From Photorhabdus asymbiotica (GTDB lineage Bacteria; Pseudomonadota; Gammaproteobacteria; Enterobacterales; Enterobacteriaceae), in assembly GCF_003634575.1 (NCBI RefSeq), contig NZ_RBLJ01000002.1:1054001-1118000 (forward strand): a DNA stretch of 64,000 nucleotides, given 5' to 3'. Positions 14,656-33,714 of the stretch are shown here, in pieces. Position numbers and translations under genes: made by a program. The first letter of the stretch is position 1, and each line of letters opens with the position of its first letter. The notes below the pieces were generated by a model. That model saw nothing but the letters and a program-made list of their open reading frames with translations, had not been told where the DNA came from and did not search any database.

Positions 14656-15351
14656 ATGCATAAAATCCTATTAGTTGATGATGACCGCGAGCTGACATCA
14701 CTATTAAAAGAATTACTTGAAATGGAAGGACTTAACGTTGTTATCGCTCATGACGGAGAGCAAGCATTAAAACTCCTTGACGAATCGATTGACTTACTAT
14801 TACTTGACATTATGATGCCGCGTAAGAATGGCATTGCAACATTAAAAGAACTACGGCTACATCATCAAACGCCAGTAATTATGCTGACAGCACGTGGAAG
14901 TGATTTGGATCGTGTTCTGGGGCTGGAATTAGGTGCCGATGACTATCTTGCCAAACCATTTAATGATCGTGAACTCGTGGCCCGTATCCGTGCTATTCTG
15001 CGCCGCTCAAATTGGAGTGAACAGCAACAAACGGACAACAGTCCTGCCACACTTCAGGTCGATAATCTACAATTAAACCCTGGCCGCCAGGAAGCCAGCT
15101 TCGCTAATCAAATATTAGATTTAACAGGAACTGAATTCACATTGCTCTATTTATTAGCTCAACATTTGGGGCAAGTTGTCTCCCGCGAACATCTAAGCCA
15201 GGAAGTCTTAGGCAAACGACTGACCCCATTTGATCGGGCAATTGATATGCATATCTCTAACCTACGCCGTAAATTACCTGAACGAGAAGATGGCCAGCCC
15301 TGGTTTAAAACTTTACGCGGTCGCGGCTACTTAATGGTTTCCGCAACATGA
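14656..15351 (+). CDS. cpxR: Response regulator CpxR
   Basis: 231 residues in the OmpR/PhoB family. The receiver domain (1-118) has the acidic pocket D8/D9, phospho-acceptor Asp51 in LLLLDIMMP and the conserved Lys in DDYLAKPF. The winged-helix DNA-binding domain follows, with LTGTEFTLLYLLAQHLGQVV and ISNLRRKLP. A strong GGAGGA precedes the start. It answers envelope protein stress through CpxA and overlaps cpxA by 4 bp. Confidence 0.97.
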   Translation: MHKILLVDDDRELTSLLKELLEMEGLNVVIAHDGEQALKLLDESIDLLLLDIMMPRKNGIATLKELRLHHQTPVIMLTARGSDLDRVLGLELGADDYLAKPFNDRELVARIRAILRRSNWSEQQQTDNSPATLQVDNLQLNPGRQEASFANQILDLTGTEFTLLYLLAQHLGQVVSREHLSQEVLGKRLTPFDRAIDMHISNLRRKLPEREDGQPWFKTLRGRGYLMVSAT

Positions 15352-16718
15352 TAAACAGCTTAACGGCCCGCATCTTCGCCATTTTCTGGTTCACTCTGGC
15401 ATTAGTCCTGATGCTGGTATTGATGGTACCGAAACTGGATTCCAGGCAATTAACCTCTCTGCTAGAAAACGAATATCGGCAGGGCGTTATGCTAGAACAA
15501 CATATTGAAGCAGAATTAGCGCAAGACCCTGCAAATGATTTACTTTGGTGGCGCCGTTTATTTCGTGCGATTGAAAAATGGGCTCCACCAGGACAACGCC
15601 TCATATTGGTGACCAGTGAAGGACGGATTATTGGCGCCCAGAGAAATGAAATGCAAGTTGTTCGCAACTTTATCGGACAATCAGATAATGCCGACCACCC
15701 TAAGAAGAAAAAATATGGCCGTTCTGAAATGCTAGGGCCATTTTCTATTCAGGATGGAGAAGATCATTACCAACTTTACTTAGTTCGTCCAGCAAATAGC
15801 CCTCAGTCGGACTTTATTAACCTCATGTTCGACCGACCACTATTGCTATTAATTGCCACTATGTTAATCAGTGCGCCGCTCCTATTATGGCTAGCCTGGA
15901 GTTTGGCTAAACCCGCCCGTAAATTAAAAAATGCCGCAGACGATGTTGCTAAAGGCAATCTACGCCAACATCCAGAGTTAGAAGCTGGCCCACAAGAATT
16001 TCTGGCCGCAGGTAACAGCTTCAATCAGATGATCAGTGTATTGGAGCGAATGGTCACCGCACAGCAACGACTCATCTCCGACATCTCCCATGAACTACGC
16101 ACGCCCCTCACCCGCCTACAACTTGCAACAGCATTACTTCGCCGCCGTCATGGTGAAAGTAAAGAATTGGAAAGAATTGAGACAGAAGCCCAACGGCTAG
16201 ACAGCATGATTAACGATCTGTTAGTACTCTCCCGCAGCCAGCATAAAAATGAGTTGCTGAGAGAAAATATTAAAATGACAGATTTATGGAACGATATTCT
16301 CGATAACGCCAGCTTTGAAGCTGAACAAATGGATAAAACCCTCGAGACAACCTCACCACCGGGTCCCTGGACCATTTACTGCAACCCATCAGCACTTGGC
16401 AGTGCTTTTGAAAATATTGTACGCAATGCCTTACGCTACTCTCACCACCACATTGCGGTGGGTTTCCACGCCGATAATCAAGGGATTACCATCACCGTTG
16501 ACGATGACGGGCCTGGCGTCAACCCGGAAGACCGCGAACATATATTCCGCCCCTTCTACCGTACAGACGAAGCCCGTGACCGAGAATCTGGCGGCACTGG
16601 CCTTGGCTTAGCCATCGTTGAAACCGCAGTTAGTCAGCATCGTGGCTGGGTACGTGCTGAAGACAGCCCACTAGGCGGCTTACGCTTGGTTATTTGGCTA
16701 CCACTTCATGGTCGGTAA
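15348..16718 (+). CDS. cpxA: Sensor histidine kinase CpxA
   Basis: 456 residues. First membrane span about 7-28, periplasmic sensor about 30-162, second span about 163-185, then a HAMP domain and phospho-acceptor His248 in ISDISHELRTPLTR. The ATPase domain has N, G1 and G2 boxes (NIVRNALRYS, DDDGPGV, GGTGLGLAIV). It is an inner-membrane sensor of misfolded envelope proteins that phosphorylates CpxR. Its last codons and downstream DNA are repeated at about 33467, in front of the second O-antigen cluster. Confidence 0.97.
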   Translation: MINSLTARIFAIFWFTLALVLMLVLMVPKLDSRQLTSLLENEYRQGVMLEQHIEAELAQDPANDLLWWRRLFRAIEKWAPPGQRLILVTSEGRIIGAQRNEMQVVRNFIGQSDNADHPKKKKYGRSEMLGPFSIQDGEDHYQLYLVRPANSPQSDFINLMFDRPLLLLIATMLISAPLLLWLAWSLAKPARKLKNAADDVAKGNLRQHPELEAGPQEFLAAGNSFNQMISVLERMVTAQQRLISDISHELRTPLTRLQLATALLRRRHGESKELERIETEAQRLDSMINDLLVLSRSQHKNELLRENIKMTDLWNDILDNASFEAEQMDKTLETTSPPGPWTIYCNPSALGSAFENIVRNALRYSHHHIAVGFHADNQGITITVDDDGPGVNPEDREHIFRPFYRTDEARDRESGGTGLGLAIVETAVSQHRGWVRAEDSPLGGLRLVIWLPLHGR

Positions 16719-16947
16719 TACAGATTCCTTCCAACCTTATTCTACAAATTAATTAAACAGATAAATTTTTATTATGCTTGACCCGGAGAGTCTGACGGTT
16801 TAACCTCCCCTGTTATTCATTAAAAACACTTATATTTTTTGCTTTTTAATTACAGCCGACAAAAACATTGGAAAATCAAAACAATAGGTAAAATCATAAA
16901 ATTCCACGGAATTCTGGGAGCCAATAACCTAGTGCGGTAGCTTTGTT
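16697..16947 (+). repeat. Long direct repeat, copy 1 (cpxA 3' end plus JUMPstart leader)
   Basis: This stretch, from the last codons of cpxA through the JUMPstart, has a recognisable copy at 33467-33714. The two agree at GCTACCACTTCATGG, in several internal blocks (for example TTGGAAAATCAA) and are identical over the last 36 bp. The middle has diverged by substitutions and small indels. This copy is original, since cpxA is complete here. Confidence 0.85.
16912..16947 (+). promoter_or_regulatory. JUMPstart/ops element of O-antigen cluster 1
   Basis: The 36-bp block matches the JUMPstart consensus (CTGGTAGC...AAGCCAGGGGCGGTAGCGT) and ends with the ops core GCGGTAGCTTTG (16934-16945). In enterobacteria ops pauses RNA polymerase and recruits RfaH, allowing transcription of long polysaccharide operons. 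It lies 172 bp upstream of wbpA in a 400-bp gap (16719-17118) that otherwise holds only AT-rich leader; the promoter is probably in 16740-16900 but is not resolved. Confidence 0.85.
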
Positions 16948-17118: not shown

Positions 17119-18429
17119 ATGTCCTCACTCAGCATTCTTACCGAGAAATTTGATAATAAAACCGCCATCATTGCCATTGTGGGTCTTGGTTATGTGGGTT
17201 TACCTTTAATGCTCCGATATAACGATGTCGGTTTCAAAGTTATTGGTTTTGATATTGACAAAGAAAAAACAGATAAATTAAATCGAGGTCAAAGTTATAT
17301 CGAACATATTCCCTCATCCAACATCACTAAAGCCATCAATACCGGTTTTGAAGCCACAACGGATTTCACCAAAATCACTGAATGCGATGCCATTATTCTT
17401 TGCGTTCCCACACCGTTAAACAAATACCGTGAACCCGATATCAGCTTTGTCATTAACACCACCGACCGGGTAAAACCGTATTTAAGAACCGGGCAAGTCC
17501 TCTCCTTAGAAAGCACCACTTATCCAGGCACCACGGAAGAAGAGTTATTACCCCGGGTTGAAGAAAGTGGGTTAACCGTCGGTGAAGATATTTTCCTGGT
17601 CTATTCCCCCGAACGGGAAGACCCCGGTAACCCTGATTTCGAAACCCGCACCATCCCTAAAGTCATTGGCGGCCACACGGAAAACTGTTTAAAAGCCGGT
17701 ATCGCTGTTTATCAGCCGGCCATTGACCAGGTTGTCCCGGTGAGTTCAACCAAAGCCGCTGAAATGACAAAACTGCTTGAGAATATACACCGGGCGGTCA
17801 ATATTGGCTTAGTCAACGAGATGAAACTCGTTGCCGATAAAATGGGGATTGATATCCATGAAGTCATTCGGGCTGCGGCAACCAAACCCTTCGGCTTTGT
17901 CCCTTATTACCCCGGTCCCGGATTAGGCGGTCACTGTATTCCGATTGATCCCTTCTATTTAACCTGGAAAGCCCGAGAATACGGTATTAATACCCGCTTT
18001 ATTGAACTCTCCGGTGAAGTTAATTCCTCCATGCCAGATTACGTGGTCACCAAAACGGTATTAGCCCTCAACAAGGCGAATAAATCCATTAATGGCAGCC
18101 ACATCTTAATACTCGGCATCGCCTATAAAAAGAATGTGGATGATATGCGAGAAAGCCCCTCGGTACATATTATGGAAAAACTCCGAGAGCTCGGTGCTAA
18201 TATCGAATATTCAGATCCACACGTCTCAGCTTTTCCTAAAATGCGGGAACATCATTTTAATTTAACCAGCCAACCTATCACTGAAAATAACCTCAACACT
18301 TTCGACTGCGTTATTTTAGCTACCGATCACGATAAATTTGATTATGAGCTGATCATCAATAACGCCAAATTAGTCGTCGATACCCGTGGCAAGTATTCTC
18401 CCAATCATAAAAACATCATAAAAGCTTAA
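17119..18429 (+). CDS. wbpA: UDP-N-acetylglucosamine 6-dehydrogenase (WbpA)
   Basis: 436 residues, the same length as Pseudomonas aeruginosa WbpA. It has an NAD-binding Rossmann motif [11 protein letters not shown] (residues 20-30), central helical domain and catalytic Cys273 in [13 protein letters not shown]. The C-terminal UDP-binding domain has [18 protein letters not shown]. It oxidises UDP-GlcNAc to UDP-GlcNAcA, the first step to UDP-GlcNAc3NAcA. It is the first gene after the JUMPstart. This block of four genes is clearly GC-richer than the rest of cluster 1. Confidence 0.92.
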
Positions 18430-18442
18430 CTTAGGATAAGAC

Positions 18443-19492
18443 ATGCTGAACATCATTAAAGACAGAAAGATAAGATTTGCTTTAGTGGGATGTGGGCGGA
18501 TCGCAAAAAATCACTTCCATGCACTGGAAGTCCATCAAGCAGAGGTCGAATTAGTTGCCGTCTGTGATAACGAGCAAAATGCATTAAACGCAGCGGTAGA
18601 AAAAACCGGCGTTCCGGGTTTCAGCGACTTAAACGCGATGCTGGATAATATCACCGCCGATATCATTATCCTGACCACGCCCTCCGGCCTCCATCCAGAG
18701 CAGGCGATGACCTGCTTTGATAAAGGCTTTCATGTCGTCACCGAGAAACCGATGGCCACCCGGCTGGCTGATGGTGAAAATATGGTTAAAGCCGCCGATA
18801 AAGCCGGCAAACACCTCTTTGTTGTCAAACAAAATCGCTTAAATGCCACCTTACAATTACTGAAACGGGCCGTCAGTGAAAAACGTTTTGGCAAAATCCA
18901 TATGGTTCACCTCAATGTTTTCTGGACCCGACCTCAAGCCTATTATGACCAGGCCGCTTGGCGGGGCACCTGGGAATTTGATGGGGGTGCCTTCATGAAT
19001 CAGGCCAGCCACTATGTTGATTTAATTGAATGGTTAATCGGTCCGGTCAAAGATGTTCAAGCCATGACGTCTACCCACTTGGATATCGAAACGGAAGATA
19101 CCGGGGTACTCAATATCCGCTGGCGGGATGGCACCTTAGGCTCGATGGCTGTCACCATGTGTACCTATCCGAAAAACCTTGAAGGCTCCATCACCATTCT
19201 CGGGGAAAAAGGCACAGTTCGGGTGGGGGGCATGGCCGTCAATGAAATCCAGGAATGGCATTTCGCTGACGAACAAGAGTATGACCAACACGTCAAAACC
19301 GCGAGCTATGAAACCACCTCCGTTTATGGATTTGGTCATCCCCTCTATTATAAAAATGTCATTGATGTCATGAAAGGCAAAGCCCAACCCATCACTGATG
19401 GCCGGGAAGGCTTAAAATCCTTAGAGCTGCTTATCGCCGCCTACCTGTCAGCCAGAGATAATAAAACCATCTCCTTGCCTTTAACCTATTAA
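18443..19492 (+). CDS. wlbA: UDP-GlcNAcA 3-dehydrogenase (WlbA/WbpB type)
   Basis: 349 residues of the Gfo/Idh/MocA family. Rossmann motif VGCGRIAKNHFHAL comes first, then the signature VTEKPMA and the catalytic region WRGTWEFDGGAFMNQASHYV with a conserved His. Length and sequence are closer to Bordetella WlbA (about 350) than to the shorter Pseudomonas WbpB (about 316). It oxidises C3 of UDP-GlcNAcA to give the substrate for the aminotransferase at 20113. It follows wbpA by 13 bp. Confidence 0.88.
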   Translation: MLNIIKDRKIRFALVGCGRIAKNHFHALEVHQAEVELVAVCDNEQNALNAAVEKTGVPGFSDLNAMLDNITADIIILTTPSGLHPEQAMTCFDKGFHVVTEKPMATRLADGENMVKAADKAGKHLFVVKQNRLNATLQLLKRAVSEKRFGKIHMVHLNVFWTRPQAYYDQAAWRGTWEFDGGAFMNQASHYVDLIEWLIGPVKDVQAMTSTHLDIETEDTGVLNIRWRDGTLGSMAVTMCTYPKNLEGSITILGEKGTVRVGGMAVNEIQEWHFADEQEYDQHVKTASYETTSVYGFGHPLYYKNVIDVMKGKAQPITDGREGLKSLELLIAAYLSARDNKTISLPLTY

Positions 19493-19510
19493 ACCCATGG
19501 AACTGGTCTC

Positions 19511-20098
19511 ATGTCAGCAGAACAATTAATGATACATCCCAGTGCCATTGTTGATGAAGGAGCACAAATCGGGAAAAACAGCCGTATCTGGCATTTCACC
19601 CATATCTGTTCTGGCGCTCAAATTGGTGAAGGCTGTTCTTTAGGACAAAATGTCTTTATCGGCAATAAAGTCACCATCGGTAATCACTGCAAAATACAAA
19701 ACAACGTCTCTGTTTATGACAATGTTCATCTAGAAGACGGCGTATTTTGTGGCCCCAGCATGGTTTTCACCAATGTTTATAATCCCCGCTCATTGATTGA
19801 AAGAAAAAGTGAATATCAGAATACGCTCGTCAAGAAAGGAGCGACCTTAGGCGCCAACTGTACCATTGTTTGTGGCACCACCATTGGCACTTACGCTTTT
19901 ATTGGTGCCGGCGCGGTGGTCAATAAAGATGTTCCTGATTATGCCCTGATGGTGGGCGTGCCGGCCAAACAGATTGGCTGGATGAGTGAATTTGGTGAAC
20001 AATTAGATTTACCCCTGCACGGACAAGCCACCACCATTTGTCCACACACTCACCATATTTATCAACTCAATGACCATACCGTCGTGCGAATTCAATAA
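19511..20098 (+). CDS. wbpD: UDP-GlcNAc3NA N-acetyltransferase (WbpD/WlbB)
   Basis: 195 residues of left-handed beta-helix hexapeptide repeats (for example [20 protein letters not shown], then [16 protein letters not shown]). The active-site region is [15 protein letters not shown], where WbpD/WlbB enzymes have the catalytic Asn/His face. It acetylates the 3-amino group of UDP-GlcNAc3NA using acetyl-CoA to give UDP-GlcNAc3NAcA. An internal ATG at codon 7 (MIHPSAIV) is an alternative start, since neither has a strong ribosome-binding site. It lies between wlbA and wbpE. Confidence 0.9.
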
Positions 20099-20112
20099 GC
20101 AAGGATAAAGGC

Positions 20113-21183
20113 ATGAAATTTACCGACTTAGCAGCACAACAACACAGAATTAAAGATAAAATTGACGCAAATATCCAAAAAGTCCTCACCCACGGCAAAT
20201 ATATTTTAGGGCCGGAAGTGGCCGAATTAGAAGAAAAGCTGATTGCATACACCGGGGCGCCATACTGTATTACCTGCGCCAATGGCACCGATGCGTTACA
20301 AATTGCCTTGATGGCAATTGGCATCAAACCCGGCGATGAAGTCATTATCCCCGGATTTACCTACATTGCCACCGCTGAAACCGTCGCATTGCTGGGCGGT
20401 ATCCCGGTTTATATTGATGTCAAACCCACGACATATAATCTAGACCCTGCACGACTTGAAGCCGCCATTACGCCGAAAACCAAAGCGATCATTCCGGTCT
20501 CCTTATTTGGTCAATGTGCTGATTTTGACGAAATTAACGCTATCGCCGCAAAACACAACATTCCCGTAATAGAAGACGCAGCCCAAAGTTTTGGCGCCAC
20601 CTATAAAGGGAAACGCTCCTGCAACCTGACCACCATTTCCTGTACCAGTTTCTTCCCCAGTAAACCGTTGGGTTGTTACGGTGATGGCGGGGCTATTTTT
20701 ACCCATGATGAAGAACTGGCGAAAATTATTCGTCAAATTGCCCGTCATGGACAAGACAGACGATACCACCATGTCAGAGTCGGAGTGAATAGCCGTTTAG
20801 ATACCCTGCAAGCCGCCATTTTACTACCTAAACTGGACATATTTGATGAAGAAATGGCATTACGTCAGACAGTTGCCACAAACTACAATCAGGCGTTGAA
20901 TGACATTGGCATCCTGACCACGCCCTATATCGAGCCACACAATCTCTCTGCTTATGCGCAATATACTATCCGGGTTAAAAATCGTGATAAATTGCAACAC
21001 AAATTAAAAGCACAAGGCATTCCCACCGCCGTGCATTACCCCATTCCCTTGAATAAACAACCTGCGGTAGCCAGCAATATTGCTCTACCTGTAGGAGACG
21101 AAATCGCTCAGGAAGTAATTAGTTTACCGATGCATCCATATTTATCCATAGATTTAATTAATAAAATTACCAGCTCCATTTAA
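20113..21183 (+). CDS. wbpE: UDP-3-keto-GlcNAcA aminotransferase (WbpE)
   Basis: 356 residues, DegT/DnrJ fold type I PLP enzyme. Conserved blocks are TCANGTDALQIALMAIGIKP, IPVIEDAAQSFGATYKG and the Schiff-base Lys in TSFFPSKPLGCYGDGG. It transfers an amino group from glutamate to C3 of the keto-sugar made by WlbA. Base composition falls towards its 3' end, where the GC-richer wbp block passes into the AT-rich flippase/polymerase region. Confidence 0.9.
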   Translation: MKFTDLAAQQHRIKDKIDANIQKVLTHGKYILGPEVAELEEKLIAYTGAPYCITCANGTDALQIALMAIGIKPGDEVIIPGFTYIATAETVALLGGIPVYIDVKPTTYNLDPARLEAAITPKTKAIIPVSLFGQCADFDEINAIAAKHNIPVIEDAAQSFGATYKGKRSCNLTTISCTSFFPSKPLGCYGDGGAIFTHDEELAKIIRQIARHGQDRRYHHVRVGVNSRLDTLQAAILLPKLDIFDEEMALRQTVATNYNQALNDIGILTTPYIEPHNLSAYAQYTIRVKNRDKLQHKLKAQGIPTAVHYPIPLNKQPAVASNIALPVGDEIAQEVISLPMHPYLSIDLINKITSSI

Positions 21184-21188
21184 AATCT

Positions 21189-22412
21189 ATGAATTATAAA
21201 TTATTGCGGAATATATCTGGCTTATTACTCTCATCATTAGTCAGCCAGATATTATTATTACTATCAACGCCGGTATTAACACGATTATTTTCACCTGAAG
21301 AATTGGGTACTTACGCTTCATTTTCATCACTATTAAGTGTTTTTGCCGTAGGCGCCTGTCTTCGTTATGAATTTTCAATAAGTTCATCAGAAAAGAATCG
21401 TGAGATTAATTCATTAGTCACATTATCTTGCATCATTCCAATAACCATTAGTTTGATAATTATCGCTATCTTTGCAATATATAATCCATCAGAAAAAATA
21501 GCCATAGGAAACTATATATACTATATCCCGCTGGGTATTATAACTTATGGATTTTACCGAGCTGTCAGTTTCAATAGTATAAGAGAAAAACAATACCGTG
21601 AATTCTCTATCACCAAAATAGCTCAGACAATTGCTATGATTAGCATTCAAATCATTGGTGGTATCGCTAGTTTAGGAGCAAGCAGCCTTATATTAGGCCA
21701 GATATTAGGTCAATCATTAGGTGTTCTATTTTTAGGTAAAAAATCTCAATATCGCTTTATTACAAGCAAAAATGAATTCAAAAAAATAAAACTACTGGCT
21801 AAAAAATATTATAAATTCCCAGTTTATGATTTCCCGGCAGCTTCAATTAATACATTTAGTAATGAACTACCTCAACTATTTATCATGTCCACATATGGGC
21901 TAAAATCAGCAGGATTTTATTTGATTGCATCTAGAATATCAGGCTCCCCAATTACACTATTAAGCCAAACCGTTTCGTCTATATTACAAGGATACTTAAA
22001 AGACCCGACTACATCACCTTTCTTAAAGATCAAAAAAACATTTTATTGCCTAACGCTGATTGCTATTTTATTTGCTATAGTGACATATTTAACGGGTATA
22101 CCCATAATAACCTTTATTTTCGGTGAAGAATGGCGTGAATCAGGTAAATATCTATTATGTTTAATACCTCATTTCTGCGGACAAATAATATATTCATCTT
22201 TATCAATATATCTATCCATTTATGAACACCAGAAAAGCAATTTATTTATTCAAACAACATCTATTACATTAAGATTTATATCCCTCTTCACCGGATATAT
22301 GCTAGGAGATATTTACCTGACCCTTTTATTATTTTCACTCACAAGCTTTATTCTTTATCTAATGAGTACGGCTTATATTTTAAAATTATCTTTCATGCGC
22401 AAAGAAGGTTAA
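21189..22412 (+). CDS. wzx: O-unit flippase Wzx, cluster 1
   Basis: 407 residues with about 11-12 hydrophobic spans. The N-terminal motif SQILLLLSTPVLTRLFSPEE and then GTYASFSSLLSV is typical of polysaccharide flippases of the MOP/Wzx family. It moves the undecaprenyl-PP-linked repeat unit to the periplasmic face of the inner membrane. Wzx sequences are cluster-specific, and the flippase of cluster 2 at 37319 is not visibly closely related. It lies 5 bp after wbpE. Confidence 0.88.
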   Translation: MNYKLLRNISGLLLSSLVSQILLLLSTPVLTRLFSPEELGTYASFSSLLSVFAVGACLRYEFSISSSEKNREINSLVTLSCIIPITISLIIIAIFAIYNPSEKIAIGNYIYYIPLGIITYGFYRAVSFNSIREKQYREFSITKIAQTIAMISIQIIGGIASLGASSLILGQILGQSLGVLFLGKKSQYRFITSKNEFKKIKLLAKKYYKFPVYDFPAASINTFSNELPQLFIMSTYGLKSAGFYLIASRISGSPITLLSQTVSSILQGYLKDPTTSPFLKIKKTFYCLTLIAILFAIVTYLTGIPIITFIFGEEWRESGKYLLCLIPHFCGQIIYSSLSIYLSIYEHQKSNLFIQTTSITLRFISLFTGYMLGDIYLTLLLFSLTSFILYLMSTAYILKLSFMRKEG

Positions 22413-22413
22413 A

Positions 22414-23526
22414 ATGAAGAGAACCAAAAATATAATAAAAATAATCCCCTACATTATTATCGTGATGATTGTAAGTTATACATTCAATAAATACGCTTAT
22501 GAATTAGATGAATTCAATGGTAATGTAAGAAGCTTAGTCATGAAAGGAAAATTTGCTCAACGCGAATTTAATAATAATGGTTTTCCCCTATCACATTCAC
22601 CTCATATTCCCGAGCCATTCTTATCCCCATTTTATGTTGTACACTATGGAATGATATACTCTTCTTTAGCCTTAAATAAAGATAATACCAATATATTATG
22701 GCGGACGGATTCATCCTTATCCGGGTGGAACGTACCACCGCCTAAATTCAATAAAGACCAATTGCTTTCTAATTTTAAATTTTCTGCTGATTGGTTATCA
22801 AGTAATACAAAATTATTTCATGGTGAAAACCATTACTTATATGATTTTGACTGGTCATATAAAGGATATAAAAACAATAAACTCTCTGCCCCTTGGTGGT
22901 CTGGACTAACAGATGCCTATGCCATTATTCTCCTATTAAGGGCTTATGACCATTTTGGTGATGATAAATATCTGTCAACCTCGAAGCTACTATACCAATC
23001 ATCACTAACACCTATCCATAAAGGCGGCAGTTTAACAACATTAGATGATCTGCCCTGGATTGAAGAATATGTTGATCCCCAAGCTAATTCAGATAAATTG
23101 GCTTTTGTATTAAACGGCATGATCTACTCTACTTATGGCATTGAATCCTTTGAAAACTATCTAAATATAGATGAAAGCAAAAGGGTGTCCGAAAGTTTAT
23201 ATCAATCAATCAGTCATAATATATTTAAGTTCGACATAAGAAATGAATGGTCCAGCTATGATTTAATTGGAAATCCAAGTAATATCAAATATCATAGAAT
23301 ACATACTCTACTCCTAAAAGATCTGATAGAGAGAAATCAAAATTTTAAAAATAAAGAAATAATGGATTTATATAATAGTTGGAATAAATCCATCTCTAAT
23401 ATTGGCTATTATTACATAAAACATGGCCCTATTAGTTGGGCATACTATCAATTTATTACAATGTACTTCCTATCTATCTTATTATTATCATCCATTTATT
23501 TCTTTATCAGAAAAAATGCAAAATAA
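22414..23526 (+). CDS. Membrane-anchored glucuronyl C5-epimerase-like protein
   Basis: 370 residues: an N-terminal span (about 7-24), a large soluble domain and a C-terminal span (about 346-365), so the domain should be periplasmic. The domain resembles the C-terminal catalytic domain of animal heparosan D-glucuronyl C5-epimerase: PWWSGLTDAYAIILLLRAY (160-178), WIEEY (215-219), FVLNGMIYSTYGIES (231-245), SSYDL (280-284) and YHRIH (293-297). Tyr219, Tyr282 and Tyr293 line up with tyrosines considered catalytic there. Because the cluster makes N-acetylated uronic acids, I infer C5 epimerisation of a uronic acid in the O-unit or polymer. It lies between wzx and wzy. Substrate unproven. Confidence 0.68.
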   Translation: MKRTKNIIKIIPYIIIVMIVSYTFNKYAYELDEFNGNVRSLVMKGKFAQREFNNNGFPLSHSPHIPEPFLSPFYVVHYGMIYSSLALNKDNTNILWRTDSSLSGWNVPPPKFNKDQLLSNFKFSADWLSSNTKLFHGENHYLYDFDWSYKGYKNNKLSAPWWSGLTDAYAIILLLRAYDHFGDDKYLSTSKLLYQSSLTPIHKGGSLTTLDDLPWIEEYVDPQANSDKLAFVLNGMIYSTYGIESFENYLNIDESKRVSESLYQSISHNIFKFDIRNEWSSYDLIGNPSNIKYHRIHTLLLKDLIERNQNFKNKEIMDLYNSWNKSISNIGYYYIKHGPISWAYYQFITMYFLSILLLSSIYFFIRKNAK

Positions 23527-24745
23527 AATTAAAATAACCCTGAAAATATTTCTATATCAGGTTATTATTTACCTGAATTCGGTGCTTATATTAGACACAT
23601 TCCATGAGGTAAGAGGCTATAATATTACTCCACAAGGTTACTTAAGTATTTTTCTCTGTTGGATATCATTCCTACCTCTCATTTTACTTAATAACAAAAA
23701 AAATCCAGTTATGGTTTTTCTATGGTTAATATATATAACTTACATCATACCAGTATCAATTATATTCCCATTAATTAATTCAGCCTCCCTCAATTCAACA
23801 ATTTTCATACTCACAATAAACATATTATTTTTCTTATCTATATTGTTTTTCCGCATAATAGATAGAATAACGATGCCGAAACTGAAAATTCCATGGGATT
23901 TATATAAAATAATTATAATAGGATGTGGTATTATTGTGCTGTTATTCGTTATTAGCAATCCTGGATTCAGTCTAATACCACCAAATATATTTAGAGTTTA
24001 TGCTGTAAGAGAACACTTTAAAGAAAATACCCCGCTACTCACCATGTACATCATCACAAATGGGGGATATGTTATCTCACCATTGCTATTACTGGCTTCA
24101 CTTTATGTAAGAGGTTCTATTAAATATATCCTCATTACGATAAGCATTGCGATTTCCTATTTAATCTATAGCTCTTCTGGATTAAAAAGCATAGCATTCA
24201 TGAACCTTGCCGTTATCATTCTATTCTTCTATATAAAAGGAACAAGATCGATAAGTAATTCAGTGATAAACATCATTCTCTATTTATTCCTTACCGCCGG
24301 GATATTATATTTTATTTTTGATTTTTATGATCCACTTATACATTGGCTACGTAGAGTATTCTTCACACCCACATTAAATACCTATTACTTCTATGATTAT
24401 ATCTACAACAACAATAGTGAATTTACAAAAGAAGCTCCTCAAATAATTTCTCAAATATATTATGGCACATCAGGATCGGCCAATACAGGCTTTATCGGAG
24501 ACGGTATCGCCCGATATGGCACATTTGGTTTATTAATAAACTTTTTCATATTTAACATATTAATCTTCGCAATGAACCTGAGTTCAAAAAAAGTTCCATT
24601 TGAGTTTTCAACCACATTATATCTACCCTTCGTATATACGATATCAAATTCAGCGATTACAGCGCTGCTACTGACATATGGGCTGCTAGCATTAAGCATA
24701 TTATTATTTTTATTTCCTACAAAAACTAACAAAATACCCTTATGA
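23516..24745 (+). CDS. wzy: O-antigen polymerase Wzy, cluster 1
   Basis: About 409 residues from ATG 23516, overlapping the previous gene by 11 bp; an upstream start would overlap it by over 100 bp. It has 10-12 hydrophobic spans and a large extracytoplasmic loop (about WLRRVFFTPTLNTYYFYDYI onward to the GTSGSANTGFIGDGIARYG motif). The VFFTPG-like and TGFIGDGxARYG pattern occurs in Wzy proteins from other O-antigen loci. It polymerises flipped O-units in the periplasm. It is the only Wzy candidate in cluster 1. Confidence 0.8.
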   Translation: MQNKIKITLKIFLYQVIIYLNSVLILDTFHEVRGYNITPQGYLSIFLCWISFLPLILLNNKKNPVMVFLWLIYITYIIPVSIIFPLINSASLNSTIFILTINILFFLSILFFRIIDRITMPKLKIPWDLYKIIIIGCGIIVLLFVISNPGFSLIPPNIFRVYAVREHFKENTPLLTMYIITNGGYVISPLLLLASLYVRGSIKYILITISIAISYLIYSSSGLKSIAFMNLAVIILFFYIKGTRSISNSVINIILYLFLTAGILYFIFDFYDPLIHWLRRVFFTPTLNTYYFYDYIYNNNSEFTKEAPQIISQIYYGTSGSANTGFIGDGIARYGTFGLLINFFIFNILIFAMNLSSKKVPFEFSTTLYLPFVYTISNSAITALLLTYGLLALSILLFLFPTKTNKIPL

Positions 24746-25845
24746 AAATCACACATATGACTTCGGTACATTCACGCTTCGACATCCGTATTTTCCTGAA
24801 AGAATGTTCTGCCTTACAAAAAAAACATGAAGTCTCCCTTATTGTTGCAGATGGTAAAGGTAATGAAATAAAGAATAACATTGCTATCATTGATGTCGGT
24901 ATATTAACAGGCCGACTAAATAGAATATTTAAAACAACCAATAAAGTTTATAAAAAAGCATTAGAATTAGATGCTGACTTATATCATTTCCATGATCCGG
25001 AACTCATACCTATCGGATTAAAACTCAAAAAGAAAGGTAAAATAGTTATTTTTGATGCCCATGAAGATGTCCCTAAACAAATTTTTAGCAAACCTTATTT
25101 AAATAAATTTAACAAAATTATTATCTCTAAATTATTCGCCCTCTACGAAAAATATGCTGCTGCTAAATTTGACGGAATTATTACGGCTACCCCATCAATA
25201 AGAAATAAATTCTTAAAATTCAATAAAAACACCATAGATATCAATAATTACCCCATATTGGGTGAATTATATAATAAGAACGCCAACTGGCATGAAAAAG
25301 AAAAACAAGTCTGCTATGTCGGCGGTATTTCTGATATCAGAGGTATAGCCGAGATGGTTAAATCCATCTCTCACCTCACAACAAATACAAAAATGAAATT
25401 AGCGGGTAATTTTTCTGACAAAGATTTAGAGAATAAAATAAAAAACATGAAAAATTGGCACAAAATAGATGAACTGGGATTTTTAAATCGAGGAGAAACC
25501 AAAGAACTTTTATCTAAATCTATTGCGGGTATCGTTCTATATCATCCACTACCCAATCATATCGATGCCCAACCCAATAAAATATTCGAATATATGAGTG
25601 CAGGTATTCCTGTCATCGCTTCAAATTTCACATTATGGAAAGATATTGTTGTAAAAAACCATTGTGGCATTTGTATCGATCCATTAAACCCTAAGGAAAT
25701 AGCGAATGCGATAGATTACTTATCAAATAACACTGATATAGCAGAAGAAATGGGTAACAATGGGCTTCTGGCAGTAAATGAAAAATACAATTGGGATATT
25801 GAACAAAATAAACTTAACGAATTTTACCAACAAATTGGACGTTAA
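24742..25845 (+). CDS. Glycosyltransferase, GT4 family
   Basis: 367 residues with two Rossmann-like halves. The GT4 signature is seen in the C-terminal half as QPNKIFEYMSAGIPVIASNF, with the sugar-nucleotide-binding Glu in IFEY. The N-terminal half has YHFHDPELIPIGLKL and FDAHEDVPKQ, common in O-antigen transferases. It overlaps wzy by 4 bp. It should add one sugar of the O-unit on the cytoplasmic face; donor and acceptor cannot be read from sequence. Confidence 0.82.
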   Translation: MKITHMTSVHSRFDIRIFLKECSALQKKHEVSLIVADGKGNEIKNNIAIIDVGILTGRLNRIFKTTNKVYKKALELDADLYHFHDPELIPIGLKLKKKGKIVIFDAHEDVPKQIFSKPYLNKFNKIIISKLFALYEKYAAAKFDGIITATPSIRNKFLKFNKNTIDINNYPILGELYNKNANWHEKEKQVCYVGGISDIRGIAEMVKSISHLTTNTKMKLAGNFSDKDLENKIKNMKNWHKIDELGFLNRGETKELLSKSIAGIVLYHPLPNHIDAQPNKIFEYMSAGIPVIASNFTLWKDIVVKNHCGICIDPLNPKEIANAIDYLSNNTDIAEEMGNNGLLAVNEKYNWDIEQNKLNEFYQQIGR

Positions 25846-25850
25846 TCGAT

Positions 25851-26921
25851 ATGAAAAAAATCATTACTGTATTAGGTGCCAGACCACAATTCATTAAAGC
25901 AAGTCCAGTATCTCACGCTTTAAAAAATCACCATAAATTTAAAGAGATTATCATTCATACCGGCCAACATTTTGATACGAATATGTCTGATATATTTTTT
26001 AATGAATTAGCCATTCCCAAACCGGATTACACACTCAATATTCATGGTGGCTCGCACGGTGAAATGACCGGTAAAATGCTAATCGAGGTTGAAAAAGTCC
26101 TTATCACAGAAAAACCCGATGCAGTCATGGTATATGGAGATACTAACTCAACATTAGCGGGTGCATTAGCCGCATCTAAATTACATATTCCAGTTATCCA
26201 TATTGAAGCCGGTTTACGTAGTTTTAATATCAAAATGCCAGAAGAAATAAACAGAATATTAACAGATAATGTGAGTTCAGTTCTTTTCTGTCCAACAGAC
26301 ACCGCCATCAATAATCTACAAAGAGAAGGATTTGGTTCAAAGCCAGTTACTATAAAAAAAGTCGGCGATGTAATGGAAGATGCAGCTTTATATTTTAGCC
26401 AAATGGCAAAAAAACCTGATGGTCTAGATTCTATCCAACATTTTATATTAACAACCCTCCATCGTGCTGAAAATACCGATAATCCTCAGCGTTTAGCTGA
26501 AATAGTCAATGCATTGAATGACATTCATAAAAGGATTGCTACTGTTTTAATACCGATTCACCCAAGAACTAAAAAAATGTTAGAACAATACAACTTGCAT
26601 TTAGATGTTCATTTAATTGAGCCAGTGGGATATTTAGAAATGATCTGGCTCCTCAAAAACACCTCCCTGATTATTACAGACAGCGGCGGTCTACAAAAAG
26701 AGGCTTTCTTCTTCAGAAAACCTTGTGTAACCGTCAGGGATCAAACTGAATGGGTAGAATTAATCGAAGCCGGCGTGAACAGACTTTCAGCCGCTGAAAG
26801 TAAAAAAATAATCCAATCAGTTCACAACATGATGAATATCAACATAGGCGAAGTTCAATCTATGTACGGCGGCGGTATCGCTGCGACAAGAATTGCTGAC
26901 GAATTAGAAAAATTACTATGA
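25851..26921 (+). CDS. wbpI: UDP-GlcNAc3NAcA 2-epimerase (WbpI type)
   Basis: 356 residues of the WecB/NeuC 2-epimerase family. Landmarks are GARPQFIKASPVSHAL, GDTNSTLAGALAASKLHIPV, the HIEAGLRSFN motif and TDSGGLQKEAFFFRKPCVTV. Length (WbpI is 354) and the neighbouring wbpA-wlbA-wbpD-wbpE make UDP-GlcNAc3NAcA to UDP-ManNAc3NAcA the most likely reaction, rather than WecB-type UDP-GlcNAc epimerisation. The product would feed a glycosyltransferase encoded on either side. Confidence 0.85.
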   Translation: MKKIITVLGARPQFIKASPVSHALKNHHKFKEIIIHTGQHFDTNMSDIFFNELAIPKPDYTLNIHGGSHGEMTGKMLIEVEKVLITEKPDAVMVYGDTNSTLAGALAASKLHIPVIHIEAGLRSFNIKMPEEINRILTDNVSSVLFCPTDTAINNLQREGFGSKPVTIKKVGDVMEDAALYFSQMAKKPDGLDSIQHFILTTLHRAENTDNPQRLAEIVNALNDIHKRIATVLIPIHPRTKKMLEQYNLHLDVHLIEPVGYLEMIWLLKNTSLIITDSGGLQKEAFFFRKPCVTVRDQTEWVELIEAGVNRLSAAESKKIIQSVHNMMNINIGEVQSMYGGGIAATRIADELEKLL

Positions 26922-28156
26922 ATATAGTCTATATAAACCATTATGCGGGTTCACCGGATCTTGGTATGGAGTTTCGTCCATATCATTTAGGCCAAGAATG
27001 GATTAAATCTGGACACAAAATTACCCTACTCGCAGCCTCTTATTCTCATGTCCGGACAAAACAACCTAAACTGACAGACAATAAAAAAACCACCGAAAAT
27101 ATTAACGGGTTAGAATTTATCTGGTACCCAACCCCAAGCTACAACGGAAATGGATTAGCCAGAGTCAAAAATATCTTCTCTTTTTTACGACAAATTTGGC
27201 TCGACAGTAATAACCTGGTCAAAAAATATCAGCCTGACGTGGTCATTGCATCAAGCACATATCCTATGGATATATGGGTAGCAAAACGTATTGCTCAAAA
27301 AGCTAATGCCAAACTGGTCTTTGAACTGCATGATTTATGGCCTCTTTCCCCCATAGAATTAGGTGGAATGTCACCTAGACATCCATTTATCCAATTATGT
27401 CAACTTGCTGAAAACATGGCTTACAAACATGCCGATATCGTTATTTCCATGCTCCCTAACGTAAAAGAGCATATGCAAGCTCATGGATTAGAGCTTAATA
27501 AATTACATATTATTCCTAATGGAGTGGTTGTAGATGATTGGATGAATCAACGCACGCCATTAAACAGCTTACTGGAAACGTTAATCACAGCTGAAAAAAA
27601 TAAAGGGCACAAAATTGTATGTTATTGCGGCGCTCACGGACGACCAAATGCGTTAGAAAAACTACTCAAAACAGCTTCACTGCTTCATAATAAACCCATT
27701 ACTTTTTTATTGGTTGGCACTGGCTTTGAAAAGGACAATTTAATTAAAGAATCTGAATCACTGGGCATAAATAACATTATATTCTTTGATCCCATTCCAA
27801 AATTCCAAATTCCAACACTACTCAATAAAATTGACATTGCCTATATAGGCTTACAAAAGCAATCATTATTCAGATTTGGCATCAGCCCCAATAAACTGAT
27901 TGATTATATGATGGCGGGTAAACCTATTTTATGTGCGATTGATGCAGGTAATGATCCGGTTTCTGACGCTAATTGCGGCATTACAATTAAATCAGGCAAG
28001 CCCGAAGATATTGCACAGAGCCTATTAAAACTCTGTGAATTATCAACTAACGAATTAAGCCAAATAGGGCAAAGAGGTAAAATTTACGCTTTAGAAAATC
28101 ACGCTTATTCCGTATTAGCAGACAATTTCATAAAGGCAATAATAAATCATGAATAA
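26918..28156 (+). CDS. Glycosyltransferase, GT4 WbuB/WbpJ-like
   Basis: 412 residues. The N-terminal NHYAGSPDLGMEFRPYHLGQ and LVFELHDLWPLSPIELGGMS are characteristic of the WbuB-type family. The C-terminal GISPNKLIDYMMAGKPILCA holds the donor-binding Glu/Asp region. It overlaps wbpI by 4 bp, which is why I link it with transfer of the diacetamido-uronic acid. That link is inference. Its last 8 bp overlap the aminotransferase gene. Confidence 0.82.
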   Translation: MNIVYINHYAGSPDLGMEFRPYHLGQEWIKSGHKITLLAASYSHVRTKQPKLTDNKKTTENINGLEFIWYPTPSYNGNGLARVKNIFSFLRQIWLDSNNLVKKYQPDVVIASSTYPMDIWVAKRIAQKANAKLVFELHDLWPLSPIELGGMSPRHPFIQLCQLAENMAYKHADIVISMLPNVKEHMQAHGLELNKLHIIPNGVVVDDWMNQRTPLNSLLETLITAEKNKGHKIVCYCGAHGRPNALEKLLKTASLLHNKPITFLLVGTGFEKDNLIKESESLGINNIIFFDPIPKFQIPTLLNKIDIAYIGLQKQSLFRFGISPNKLIDYMMAGKPILCAIDAGNDPVSDANCGITIKSGKPEDIAQSLLKLCELSTNELSQIGQRGKIYALENHAYSVLADNFIKAIINHE

Positions 28157-29306
28157 TAAATTCCTTCCTTTTGCATTACCTGAAATTGGACAATCTGAAA
28201 TTGACGAAGTCATTGACTCACTTAAAACCGGCTGGATAACGACCGGCCCTAAAGCCAGAAAATTTGAACACGATTTTGCGCAATACTTGGGTTCTGATGT
28301 TGAAGCCATTGCGGTAAACTCAGCCACAGCTGGATTACATTTAGCGCTGGAAGCTATTGGTATTCAACCGGGTGATGAAGTTATTGTGCCTACTTATACC
28401 TTCACGGCAACCGCCGAAGTTGTCCGTTATCTAGGCGCGCATCCTATTTTTGTTGATTCTTTACCTGACAGCCTAAATATTGATCCAACAGCAATAGAAA
28501 AAGCAATAACCGCCAAAACTAAAGCGATTATGCCGGTACATTTTGCTGGTTTATCCTGCGATATGGATGCAATCATTGCTATCGCCAAGAAATTTAATTT
28601 ACGAATCATTGAAGATGCCGCCCATTCATTCCCAACCCTATATAAGGGAAAGAAAATTGGCACACTTGACACCGATGCAACGGTATTCAGCTTCTACGCC
28701 AACAAGACCATGACGACAGCGGAAGGGGGAATACTCGTATCCAGAAATCCAGACATTATAAAAAGAGCCAAAATCATGCGCCTTCACGGTATCAGTAAAG
28801 ATGCTTTTGATCGATACCAATCTAAAACACCGGCCTGGTATTATGAAGTCATTGAACCGGGTTATAAATATAATATGCCAGATATTTGTGCCGCCATTGG
28901 TATTCATCAATTACAGAAAATAGACGCTTTTCAGAAGAAAAGAGAAGCCATGGCCAAATTTTACGATAATGAATTAAAAGATCTACCAATTACCTTACCC
29001 ACTAAACCTAAAGAACCTAATAGTCAGCACGCCTGGCATTTATACACCATTAGACTCAATGACGGAGTCAAAATATCAAGAGATGACTTTATAATAAAAA
29101 TGGCAGAGAAAAATATCGGCTGTTCTGTCCATTTTATCCCACTACATAAACAGCCAATATGGAAAGATACCTATTCTCTGGACAAAAACAATTTTCCTAT
29201 AGCAGAAGAAAACTTTAAAAGAATTGTATCCATTCCTTTATATACAAAGATGACAAAAGATGATCAGATTTATGTCATTAACACAATTAAAGAGATTCTT
29301 GAATAA
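28149..29306 (+). CDS. wbgX: Aminotransferase for UDP-4-keto-6-deoxy-HexNAc (WbgX-like)
   Basis: 385 residues, DegT/DnrJ PLP family. Features are PALPEIGQSEIDEVIDSLKT-like N-terminus (here ALPEIGQSEIDEVIDSLKTG), VNSATAGLHLALEAIGIQPG, EDAAHSFP and catalytic Lys in FSFYANKTMTTAEGG. Length matches WbgX of Shigella sonnei (384), and the next two genes match WbgY and WbgZ in order. It should convert the 4-keto sugar made by WbgZ to UDP-FucNAc4N, or its gluco isomer as in PglE; the C4 stereochemistry cannot be judged. Confidence 0.85.
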   Translation: MNNKFLPFALPEIGQSEIDEVIDSLKTGWITTGPKARKFEHDFAQYLGSDVEAIAVNSATAGLHLALEAIGIQPGDEVIVPTYTFTATAEVVRYLGAHPIFVDSLPDSLNIDPTAIEKAITAKTKAIMPVHFAGLSCDMDAIIAIAKKFNLRIIEDAAHSFPTLYKGKKIGTLDTDATVFSFYANKTMTTAEGGILVSRNPDIIKRAKIMRLHGISKDAFDRYQSKTPAWYYEVIEPGYKYNMPDICAAIGIHQLQKIDAFQKKREAMAKFYDNELKDLPITLPTKPKEPNSQHAWHLYTIRLNDGVKISRDDFIIKMAEKNIGCSVHFIPLHKQPIWKDTYSLDKNNFPIAEENFKRIVSIPLYTKMTKDDQIYVINTIKEILE

Positions 29307-29918
29307 ATGAAAACAACTTATTCAATTATAAAAAGAATTTTTGATCTAATCTCATCTTCGATTGGGTTAATCATCCTTTCACCTCTTTTAATTGTAATCG
29401 CTACTTGGATAAAAATAGACTCAAAAGGACCTATTTTTTTCCGACAAAAACGCGTAGGACGATATAATCAAAATTTCTATATTCATAAATTTAGGAGCAT
29501 GACTACCGGATCAGAGCAAAAAGGACAACTCACTATCGGTCATGATCTGCGTATTACCAACTCTGGAAAATTTATACGCAAATATAAAATTGATGAATTA
29601 GCTCAACTCATTGATGTTATACAGGGAAAAATGAGTTTAGTCGGGCCAAGACCTGAAGTGCCACAATTTATGGACAAATACCCAGATAACGTTAGAAACA
29701 AAATATTATCAGTAAAACCCGGCATAACCGATTTAGCTTCCATAGAAATGATCGATGAAAACCAAATATTAAGCCAATATCAAGATCCTCATCAAGCTTA
29801 TATCGACATTATTATGCCGATAAAAGCCAAGTATTACCTAGAATATATAGATAAAAAGTCATTTTTCTATGACCTGAAGATTATTTTCAAAACAATTTAC
29901 AAAGTAGTTTTTAGGTAA
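29307..29918 (+). CDS. wbgY: Initiating sugar-1-phosphate transferase (WbgY/PglC-like)
   Basis: 203 residues. One N-terminal hydrophobic re-entrant helix (about 15-35) precedes the PglC-type signature: GPIFFRQKRVGRYNQNFYIH, KFRSM, KIDELAQLIDVIQGKMSLVG and PRPEVPQFMDKYP. It transfers a sugar-1-phosphate, probably FucNAc4N or a bacillosamine-type residue, to undecaprenyl phosphate, starting the repeat unit. It is directly after the aminotransferase (ATG right after the TAA). Short PglC-like enzymes lack the extra domains of WbaP. Confidence 0.88.
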   Translation: MKTTYSIIKRIFDLISSSIGLIILSPLLIVIATWIKIDSKGPIFFRQKRVGRYNQNFYIHKFRSMTTGSEQKGQLTIGHDLRITNSGKFIRKYKIDELAQLIDVIQGKMSLVGPRPEVPQFMDKYPDNVRNKILSVKPGITDLASIEMIDENQILSQYQDPHQAYIDIIMPIKAKYYLEYIDKKSFFYDLKIIFKTIYKVVFR

Positions 29919-29927
29919 TTAACCATT

Positions 29928-31802
29928 ATGAACAAGAGAATGTTTTTCAATCAAGATAGATTAATCAAGACCATCGTTCTCCTCATCGTAGATATATTTA
30001 TCATCAGTATTTCATACTGGCTAAGCATGTGGCTACGCCTTGATAGAGAAGTACCCATCTATAGCTTACAACATTGGTTAACGATTATATTAACCATACC
30101 TCTCACCCTATTTATTTTCTTAAGAATCGGCTTTTATAGATCTATATTAAAATACGTTAACATGAGTATATTGAAATGGGCCATTATTGGCTCATTTCTA
30201 TCTACTCTACTATTGACCGCAATCTCCTTATATCAACAGGCATTTCTGCCAAGAACCGTACCAATTATTTATTTCTCTTTTCTGGTGATATCACTCTGCG
30301 GTACCCGATTTTTATATAGAACACTACGTAATCTATTAAGATATAAAGGAGCTCCCGTTATTATATACGGAGCAGGAGAATCCGGTCGGCAACTTTTACC
30401 CATATTAAGAGAGCATCGAGAATTCAATCCTATTGCTTTTGTTGATGATAATACGAAATTACACGATTTATCTATTCATGGGGTTTATGTCTATTCTCCA
30501 GAAAAAATAACACTTTTAGTAGAGAAATACAACATCAAGAAAATATTATTAGCAATACCTAGCGTATCAATATCCAATAGAAAAAAAATACTTGATCGAT
30601 TACAAAAAGAGCATTGTGAAATACTCACTATCCCAAGCTTCAATGATCTGGTTGAAGGAAAAGCCCAAATAAGCTCACTCAAACGCGTTTCTATTAACGA
30701 TCTACTCGGCAGAGAACAAGTTAACCCATTACAAAATTTACTCAGTAAAAATATTAAGAATAAAAACATCCTCGTTACAGGTGCCGGTGGTTCAATTGGA
30801 TCAGAGTTATGTAGGCAAATCATCACTCAGTCTCCCACGCAGCTGATATTATTTGAATTAACCGAGTACTGCCTTTATGCAATAGAAAAAGAGTTACAAA
30901 AGATAAATTCAGAAAACGATTTGAATATCACTATTATTCCAATTTTAGGTGATATAAAAGATTTAGATAAGATAAACAAAATAATAAATAAATTCAACAT
31001 TAATACAATATACCATGCTGCCGCATATAAACACGTCCCTCTGGTAGAAATGAATACCATAGAGGGGGTGAATAATAATATCTTTGGCACACTTTCACTT
31101 GCCAAAGCAGCAATTAATCAAAAAGTTGATAAATTCGTATTAATTTCTACCGATAAAGCTGTCCGCCCAACCAATACCATGGGAGCGACAAAAAGATTTG
31201 CTGAACTGATACTACAAGCTTTTGCTAAAGAAAACAGCGATACAAAATTCTCAATGGTTCGTTTTGGCAACGTTCTGGGTTCATCCGGTTCCGTGGTACC
31301 CCTATTCGAAAAACAAATAGAAAATGGCGGGCCAATAACCCTAACTCACAAAGATATTACCCGTTACTTCATGACGATCCCAGAAGCTGCCCAGTTAGTT
31401 ATCCAAGCAGGTGCACTCGGCAATAATGGCGATGTTTTTGTTCTCGATATGGGAGAATCAGTAAAAATATACGATCTTGCCCGGAAAATGATCAACCTTT
31501 CCGGACTGACAGTTAAAGATGAAATCAACCCTCACGGTGATATCGAAATCAAAATTACCGGATTAAGGCCCGGTGAAAAGCTTTATGAAGAATTATTAAT
31601 TGGTGATAACGTTTCTGGCACAAGTCATCCGAGAATCATGACCGCCAATGAAGTCTTTCTGACTTGGGATAAATTAAATCCGTTATTAAATAACCTAAAA
31701 GCATCGTGTGAAAATTATGATTTTGAGAATATTAGGAAGATCCTTATTAATGCTCCTATTGATTTTCATCCTAAAGACTACATTTACGACCTTTTAAAAT
31801 AA
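29928..31802 (+). CDS. wbgZ: UDP-GlcNAc 4,6-dehydratase, membrane type (WbgZ/WbpM-like)
   Basis: 624 residues. Four N-terminal membrane spans (about 10-130) are followed by a nucleotide-binding-like domain (IIYGAGESGRQLLPILREHR) and the catalytic SDR domain. That domain has TGAGGSIGSELCRQI, YHAAAYKHVPLVEMN, STDKAVRPTNTMGATKR and MVRFGNVLGSSGSVVPLF. In WbpM enzymes the usual SDR tyrosine is replaced by Met and the active-site Lys is kept (TMGATKR), as here. It makes UDP-4-keto-6-deoxy-GlcNAc for the aminotransferase at 28149. Last gene of cluster 1; a second paralogue ends cluster 2. Confidence 0.92.
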   Translation: MNKRMFFNQDRLIKTIVLLIVDIFIISISYWLSMWLRLDREVPIYSLQHWLTIILTIPLTLFIFLRIGFYRSILKYVNMSILKWAIIGSFLSTLLLTAISLYQQAFLPRTVPIIYFSFLVISLCGTRFLYRTLRNLLRYKGAPVIIYGAGESGRQLLPILREHREFNPIAFVDDNTKLHDLSIHGVYVYSPEKITLLVEKYNIKKILLAIPSVSISNRKKILDRLQKEHCEILTIPSFNDLVEGKAQISSLKRVSINDLLGREQVNPLQNLLSKNIKNKNILVTGAGGSIGSELCRQIITQSPTQLILFELTEYCLYAIEKELQKINSENDLNITIIPILGDIKDLDKINKIINKFNINTIYHAAAYKHVPLVEMNTIEGVNNNIFGTLSLAKAAINQKVDKFVLISTDKAVRPTNTMGATKRFAELILQAFAKENSDTKFSMVRFGNVLGSSGSVVPLFEKQIENGGPITLTHKDITRYFMTIPEAAQLVIQAGALGNNGDVFVLDMGESVKIYDLARKMINLSGLTVKDEINPHGDIEIKITGLRPGEKLYEELLIGDNVSGTSHPRIMTANEVFLTWDKLNPLLNNLKASCENYDFENIRKILINAPIDFHPKDYIYDLLK

Positions 31803-33466: not shown

Positions 33467-33714
33467 GCTACCACTTCATGGGCGATAATACAGATTTCAG
33501 CTAACCGTATTCTACCAATTAGTTAAACAAGTGGTTTGTTAAGCTTGACCAGACAGAATTTACAGTTTAGTCTCCCCCCAATGAGTTACAAAATCTTATC
33601 CCCCATTACTTTTTGTTAAAGCAGACAAAAGTATTGGAAAATCAATACAGTAGGTAAGATTACCGAATTTTGCAGGCGTTCTGGGAGCCAATAACCTAGT
33701 GCGGTAGCTTTGTT
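33467..33714 (+). repeat. Long direct repeat, copy 2 (cpxA tail remnant plus JUMPstart leader)
   Basis: It begins with the last codons of cpxA (GCTACCACTTCATGG) although no cpxA precedes it. It follows copy 1 (16697-16947) through blocks such as AATACAGATT, TATTCTACAAATT versus TATTCTACCAATT, and TTGGAAAATCAA, to the identical 36 bp at the end. Divergence in the middle implies that the two copies came from different lineages or that the event is old. Confidence 0.85.
33679..33714 (+). promoter_or_regulatory. JUMPstart/ops element of O-antigen cluster 2
   Basis: Identical over 36 bp to the element at 16912-16947, including the ops core GCGGTAGCTTTG (33701-33712). It lies 151 bp upstream of rmlA, so cluster 2 has its own RfaH-type antitermination entry and probably its own promoter in the leader just upstream. 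Confidence 0.85.

Follow-up and report, generated by a model that had tools for sequence, protein, structure and literature searches.

A putative membrane-anchored uronosyl C5-epimerase encoded between wzx and a wzy-like gene in a conserved polysaccharide operon of Photorhabdus

Why does a Wzx/Wzy-type polysaccharide operon carry, between its flippase gene and its polymerase-like gene, a relative of the glucuronyl C5-epimerase Glce of human and zebrafish, and on which sugar would such an enzyme act? The question is raised by a 64,000-nucleotide stretch of Photorhabdus asymbiotica DNA (contig NZ_RBLJ01000002.1, positions 1,054,001 to 1,118,000; here called the window), in which the gene occupies positions 22414-23526 of the + strand and encodes a protein of 370 aa. 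Judged from sequence and genomic context, this protein is probably a membrane-anchored uronosyl C5-epimerase dedicated to the surrounding operon (operon A, 17119-31802), where it would invert one assembled residue of the diacetamido-mannuronate D-ManNAc3NAcA to its rare L-gulo counterpart, L-GulNAc3NAcA. The operon A genes and the two 36-nt elements described below lie on the + strand.

The open reading frame (ORF) of the epimerase opens with an ATG 1 nt past the end of wzx (21189-22412, PF13440), and its own end overlaps the wzy-like ORF (23516-24745) by 11 nt when the latter is read from an in-frame ATG at 23516 rather than from the 23423 start given in the ORF list, placing the gene between the two as an earlier note on this DNA had described. 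The resemblance to the catalytic domain of Glce claimed in that note was borne out by a profile search, in which Pfam family PF06662 (C5-epim_C) matched residues 139-325 at 5.6e-50 (169.9 bits, the cut-off being 23.3), covering the whole domain with profile positions 3-188 of 188; an NCBIfam search of the same protein at 0.01 matched no family. Searched as a single sequence against PDB chains at E 1, the protein returned one sequence, zebrafish Glce (E 0.0012), and a profile of eight family members searched at 0.01 returned three distinct sequences (1.3e-31 to 1.1e-30), all of them human or zebrafish Glce. The EEY, YDL and YHxxH segments, with Y219, Y282 and Y293, were found at the places claimed for them. 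The residues listed as catalytic in human GLCE, in the available text of PMC13308652, are E499, Y500, N510, Y560 and Y578, and these align with E218, Y219, N234, Y282 and Y293 of the window protein (human numbers being the chain index plus 90, with positions counted by hand from the alignment). Alignment A2 used four Photorhabdus proteins, the window's among them; two Photorhabdus loci (L008 and L009) were missed by a literal motif filter and are absent from alignments A1 and A4, and both are counted in the synteny and substitution-rate comparisons below. By sequence, the protein belongs to the glucuronyl C5-epimerase catalytic-domain family, with a similarity far beyond chance, and the five aligned residues are its predicted catalytic residues. 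A domain-only structure model recovered the (alpha/alpha) barrel of Glce, the fold named beforehand as the one to look for, and the epimerase domain is predicted to adopt it. The fold comparison rests on this model, substituted for a poor whole-protein model (predicted local distance difference test score, pLDDT, 57.2) whose match to Glce was hardly above other matches.

We searched genome contigs for the family and found 12 distinct loci, 11 in Photorhabdus and one in a metagenome-assembled genome (L013). The family was present in 12 of 58 related genomes, all of the window's genus and its own included, and in 0 of the 46 others. Eight of 369 gammaproteobacterial genomes in a class-level sample matched at 0.001, the window's own among them; besides it, three matched strongly, G324 (1.8e-52), G077 (2.5e-38) and G086 (5.7e-33), and four weakly (3.6e-4 to 9.5e-4), the Pfam cut-off being reached by two of these four as well. 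A phylum-level sample yielded 3 of 398 genomes, own included, and viral contigs and plasmids yielded no relative at the limits used. In L013 and in the loci of G324 (L035) and G086 (L037), the epimerase gene again lies between wzx-like and wzy-like genes, in clusters that hold homologues of wbpD, wbpE and wbpI, with wbpB matched in L035 and L037 only. Identity to the window epimerase was 38% over 370 aligned positions in L013, 27% over 146 in L035 and 26% over 170 in L037. L013 has Wzx and Wzy proteins distantly related to the window's, and those of L035 and L037 gave no significant match. Surroundings were read for five strong-match lineages, and four of them (Photorhabdus, L013, L035 and L037) thus show the wzx-epimerase-wzy arrangement, the fifth being L036 of G077. 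Genes resembling wbpD occur in 33 of the 369 class-sample genomes; most of these 33 have no match to PF06662, which is what an optional tailoring enzyme would lead one to expect.

Several observations weigh against this proposal. The strongly matching L036 protein (9423-10259, 278 aa) is an orphan with Phe at the Y219 column, possibly serving another function, and no homologue of a polysaccharide gene of the window was visible around it; the surroundings of the distant matches in G776 and G540 (L038 and L039) likewise showed no homologue of any window gene. Because of these three neighbourhoods, the epimerase family is not tied to the diacetamido-uronate pathway everywhere. The MAFFT alignment shifts the catalytic E-Y pair of L035 out of its columns, with the letters MEY nearby. 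Pfam gave no match for the Wzx of L037 or for the Wzy proteins of L013, L035 and the window, which owe their names to position and hydrophobicity. Across whole genomes, co-occurrence with WbpD is a weak statistic: with the window left out, and against a background of 32 in 368, the WbpD-positive genomes were 2 of the 3 with a strong PF06662 match (p=0.02), 2 of the 5 that pass the Pfam cut-off (p=0.06) and 2 of the 7 matched at E 0.001 (p=0.12). The argument rests instead on physical linkage. A published Photorhabdus O-polysaccharide structure (Kondakova and others) could also contradict C5 epimerisation; no work on Photorhabdus O-polysaccharide structure or genetics was among the matches listed, in a search of mainly open literature. 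Finally, the homologues differ at their ends, which bears on the compartment in which the enzyme would work.

Hydropathy windows, used here rather than a dedicated topology predictor, place hydrophobic segments at residues 7-25 and 347-365 of the window protein, whose first 12 and last 12 residues contain 4 and 3 K/R, respectively, and zero D/E. Tails rich in K/R outside hydrophobic ends are the usual sign of cytoplasmic ends and a periplasmic domain, and in Photorhabdus the epimerase domain is likely periplasmic by this measure; the L013 homologue has the same two hydrophobic ends and K/R-rich tails. L035 has an N-terminal hydrophobic segment only, L037 no clear membrane span or signal and L036 no hydrophobic segment at either end in the hydropathy windows, and since L035 has one such end and L037 none, a periplasmic compartment may not be general across the family. 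The earlier note's two spans and periplasmic domain thus stand as probable for Photorhabdus and need not extend to the family as a whole. The ends of L035 and L037 would also suit a C5 inversion of the lipid-linked unit at the cytoplasmic side of the membrane, ahead of its flipping by Wzx, just as archaeal Agl32, an enzyme of a different kind, acts on a lipid-linked glycan before membrane transfer (PMC13308652, available text). The K/R-rich tails of the window and L013 proteins argue against such an arrangement, which we consider unlikely.

We asked which uronic acid operon A would offer a periplasmic C5-epimerase. Its first four genes encode a wbpA-like nucleotide-sugar dehydrogenase (17119-18429, by Pfam and NCBIfam), a wbpB/wlbA-like 3-dehydrogenase (18443-19492, by Pfam; 3q2i, 9.5e-166), a wbpD/wlbB-like 3-N-acetyltransferase (19511-20098, by Pfam; 3mqg, 2e-98) and a wbpE-like aminotransferase (20113-21183; Pseudomonas aeruginosa WbpE 3nu7, 5.6e-176). 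Further downstream, the wbpI product (25851-26921) matches a structurally characterised UDP-GlcNAc3NAcA 2-epimerase (8sxv) at 1.2e-116 and carries Trp (W301) at the position that is diagnostically Trp in that enzyme and Arg in UDP-GlcNAc enzymes (PMC10622841, available text). The 3-dehydrogenase, 3-aminotransferase, 3-N-acetyltransferase and 2-epimerase together make up the wbp/wlb set for UDP-ManNAc3NAcA, in agreement with the earlier assignment of a diacetamido-uronic acid cluster, and because of these WbpI, WbpE, WbpB and WbpD homologies operon A should supply UDP-D-ManNAc3NAcA. The C5 epimer of D-ManNAc3NAcA is L-GulNAc3NAcA, a beta-D-manno residue becoming alpha-L-gulo as in alginate. An epimerase that acted instead on D-GlcNAc3NAcA would give the L-ido form, with one GT4 enzyme using UDP-D-GlcNAc3NAcA directly; that nucleotide sugar is an intermediate of the operon A pathway, and the substrate of Glce is glucuronic acid (PMC13308652, in part). 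A wbpI-type gene nevertheless accompanies PF06662 in all four clusters where the epimerase lies between wzx-like and wzy-like genes, including L037, with one GT4 in the stretch read, and L-GulNAc3NAcA is favoured for this reason over the L-ido product, which appears a little less likely again than the cytoplasmic inversion.

Taken as a periplasmic inversion of D-ManNAc3NAcA, the route through operon A would run as follows. WbpA, WbpB, WbpE and WbpD would yield UDP-D-GlcNAc3NAcA, and WbpI would convert it to UDP-D-ManNAc3NAcA. Two GT4 glycosyltransferases assigned by Pfam (GT4a, 24742-25845; GT4b, 26918-28156) would attach such residues to an undecaprenyl-diphosphate-linked amino sugar, for which the remaining genes of operon A may provide: a DegT-type sugar aminotransferase (28149-29306), by homology a candidate for making the priming sugar, a priming polyprenyl-phosphate sugar-1-phosphate transferase (29307-29918, PF02397) and a wbpM-like sugar 4,6-dehydratase (29928-31802, PF02719), whose exact reaction is presumed. 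Wzx would then flip the lipid-linked unit, and the epimerase, anchored at both ends next to Wzy, would invert C5 of one D-ManNAc3NAcA to give L-GulNAc3NAcA, either on the lipid-linked unit or on the growing polymer. By analogy with Glce, the C5 proton beside the carboxylate would be abstracted and the carbon reprotonated from the opposite face through E218, Y219, N234, Y282 and Y293. The finished chain may be linked to lipopolysaccharide.

In the domain-only model the same barrel also appeared, at lower Z, in glycoside hydrolases, sugar 2-epimerases and unsaturated glucuronyl hydrolases, which leaves some room for a former C5-epimerase domain turned to other uronate chemistry, such as a chain-trimming lyase or hydrolase; with the Glce catalytic residues aligned in the window protein, we regard this as improbable. 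That the gene is an ordinary or non-functional passenger without effect on the polysaccharide product, as the copy in G795, split into two reading-frame pieces with an internal stop in one, might suggest, is the least probable reading, since stop codons occur in 0 of 11 Photorhabdus loci and the median pairwise ratio of nonsynonymous to synonymous substitution rates (dN/dS) against these loci is 0.106, inside the range of the five neighbour genes tested (0.06 to 0.136). The G795 pieces (L048 and L049) represent a natural loss; G795 and G324 share a genus-level group.

Operon A is one of two Wzx/Wzy-type operons in the interval between a CpxA-family kinase gene (15348-16718) and a SpoU-methylase gene (54309-54821). 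It carries its own flippase and priming transferase, with the polymerase presumed from position and hydrophobicity (10 hydrophobic segments, and a match to neither a Pfam nor an NCBIfam family). The second, operon B (33866-54247), also has a flippase, a priming transferase, a second wbpM-like ORF and a hydrophobic wzy-like protein with no Pfam family, together with asparagine-synthase-type, WbqC-family and formyltransferase genes, and two of its genes were read by eye as belonging to an N-acetylgalactosaminuronic acid (GalNAcA) pathway. Identical copies of a 36-nt element, which we take to be JUMPstart/ops-like, precede operon A (16912-16947) and stand at the start of operon B (33679-33714, outside the epimerase system), and the 60 nt upstream of each copy are 78% alike. 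All 11 other Photorhabdus loci have the core of the element upstream of wbpA. A search for the canonical ops pattern with one mismatch allowed gave 4 matches, all of them away from the starts of operons A and B, and the sites from a promoter and terminator scan did not outnumber those in shuffles. Genome-wide, there is one Wzy_C-family match and three Wzz-family matches, one of the latter in a 720-aa frame. Beyond the cpx genes lie P2-type capsid, terminase and portal genes and a short integrase-family ORF (1980-6899 and 13081-13779).

All 11 other Photorhabdus loci keep operon A in synteny. We compared the second operon in 16-20 kb stretches from four further Photorhabdus genomes (L041, L043, L045 and L046): one shares rmlA and galE with the window at 90% or more, one mainly galE and eamA, one galE along with further operon A-type copies, and one no close homologue. 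Operon A is therefore the conserved operon of the two, and it need not be the serotype O-antigen operon. The earlier placement of the epimerase inside an O-antigen operon has to be amended: there are two Wzx/Wzy-type operons in tandem, and the epimerase lies in the genus-conserved one. The possibility that the epimerase serves operon B was considered and rejected, because the four other genomes have a different second operon and yet the epimerase is kept. The second operon of L045 (504-15419) contains further operon A-type wbpA, wbpB, wbpD, wbpE, GT4b, degT, priming transferase and wbpM genes, hinting at exchange between the two operons. Within operon A itself, 7 of 11 Photorhabdus loci have about 1.2 kb more DNA between GT4b and degT, with no insert in the window, and L003 has a GT2-family gene there (15863-16873, PF00535, 1.9e-27); the repeat unit therefore probably varies among Photorhabdus while the epimerase stays. 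Conservation across the Photorhabdus loci suggests a constant surface glycan, which may be relevant to nematode symbiosis or insect infection. Tentatively, we extend the proposal to a dedicated family of Wzx/Wzy-coupled, membrane-anchored uronosyl C5-epimerases that would make L-gulo diacetamido-uronates on assembled chains of Gram-negative surface polysaccharides, recruited more than once and fixed in Photorhabdus in a second, conserved operon beside a variable O-antigen operon.

If the epimerisation proposed for operon A is correct, it would provide a candidate for the enzyme behind a class of poorly understood bacterial L-sugar syntheses, and a natural substrate for bacterial relatives of Glce. 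It would also mean that L-sugars need not derive from L-configured nucleotide sugars, and that structures predicted from gene clusters miss them. Amino sugars of the L-guluronic type are known in polysaccharides of Pseudoalteromonas, Idiomarina and Vibrio, and the available portions of the source papers name no enzyme that makes them, nor do they report L-GulNAc3NAcA itself. No glucuronyl-type C5-epimerase in a Wzx/Wzy cluster was reported among the matches listed, again in a search of mainly open literature. The earlier note had suggested that lipid-linked or polymer-level epimerisation of an O-antigen would be a new route to L-uronic acids in lipopolysaccharide. As chemistry, C5 inversion of assembled chains is not new: it is known for alginate and heparan sulfate, and for the Vibrio cholerae polysaccharide VPS the authors suggest inversion of D-ManNAcA to L-GulNAcA (PMC3901696, available text). 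VPS differs from the present case in its 2-amino uronate, and its epimerase gene is unnamed in that text.

Among known systems, the window protein is closest to Glce (PDB 6hzz and 4pw2), with which it shares the PF06662 family, the barrel fold and the five aligned catalytic residues. It is shorter, the structural alignment starting at about human residue 185, and operon A offers it diacetamido-mannuronate where the substrate of Glce is glucuronate. Glce has a Golgi type II anchor, and the window protein instead has two hydrophobic ends. Bermanella marisrubri RED65_08024, a bacterial relative of human Glce to which we liken the window protein by description only, is active in vitro on a heparan-type chain (PMC4432689, PMC13308652); the available text of these sources calls it the only identified bacterial glucuronyl C5-epimerase (PMC13308652) and its natural polysaccharide target unknown (PMC4432689). 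The alginate epimerases AlgG and AlgE offer a parallel, as excerpted accounts describe it, in turning a D-manno into an L-gulo uronate after polymerisation. The P. aeruginosa O5-type pathway is likened to operon A through its wbpA, wbpB, wbpD, wbpE and wbpI enzyme set (PMC10622841, in part). Considered against these systems, the fold and chemistry of the putative Photorhabdus epimerase would be known, and its proposed substrate and stage in the pathway new. Alginate C5-epimerases have a beta-helix fold and belong to a synthase-dependent rather than a Wzx/Wzy pathway. In P. aeruginosa, whose O-antigens include L-GulNAc3NAcA, the O5 wbp operon has two GT4 genes around wbpI, as operon A does, and we know of no C5-epimerase gene in it.
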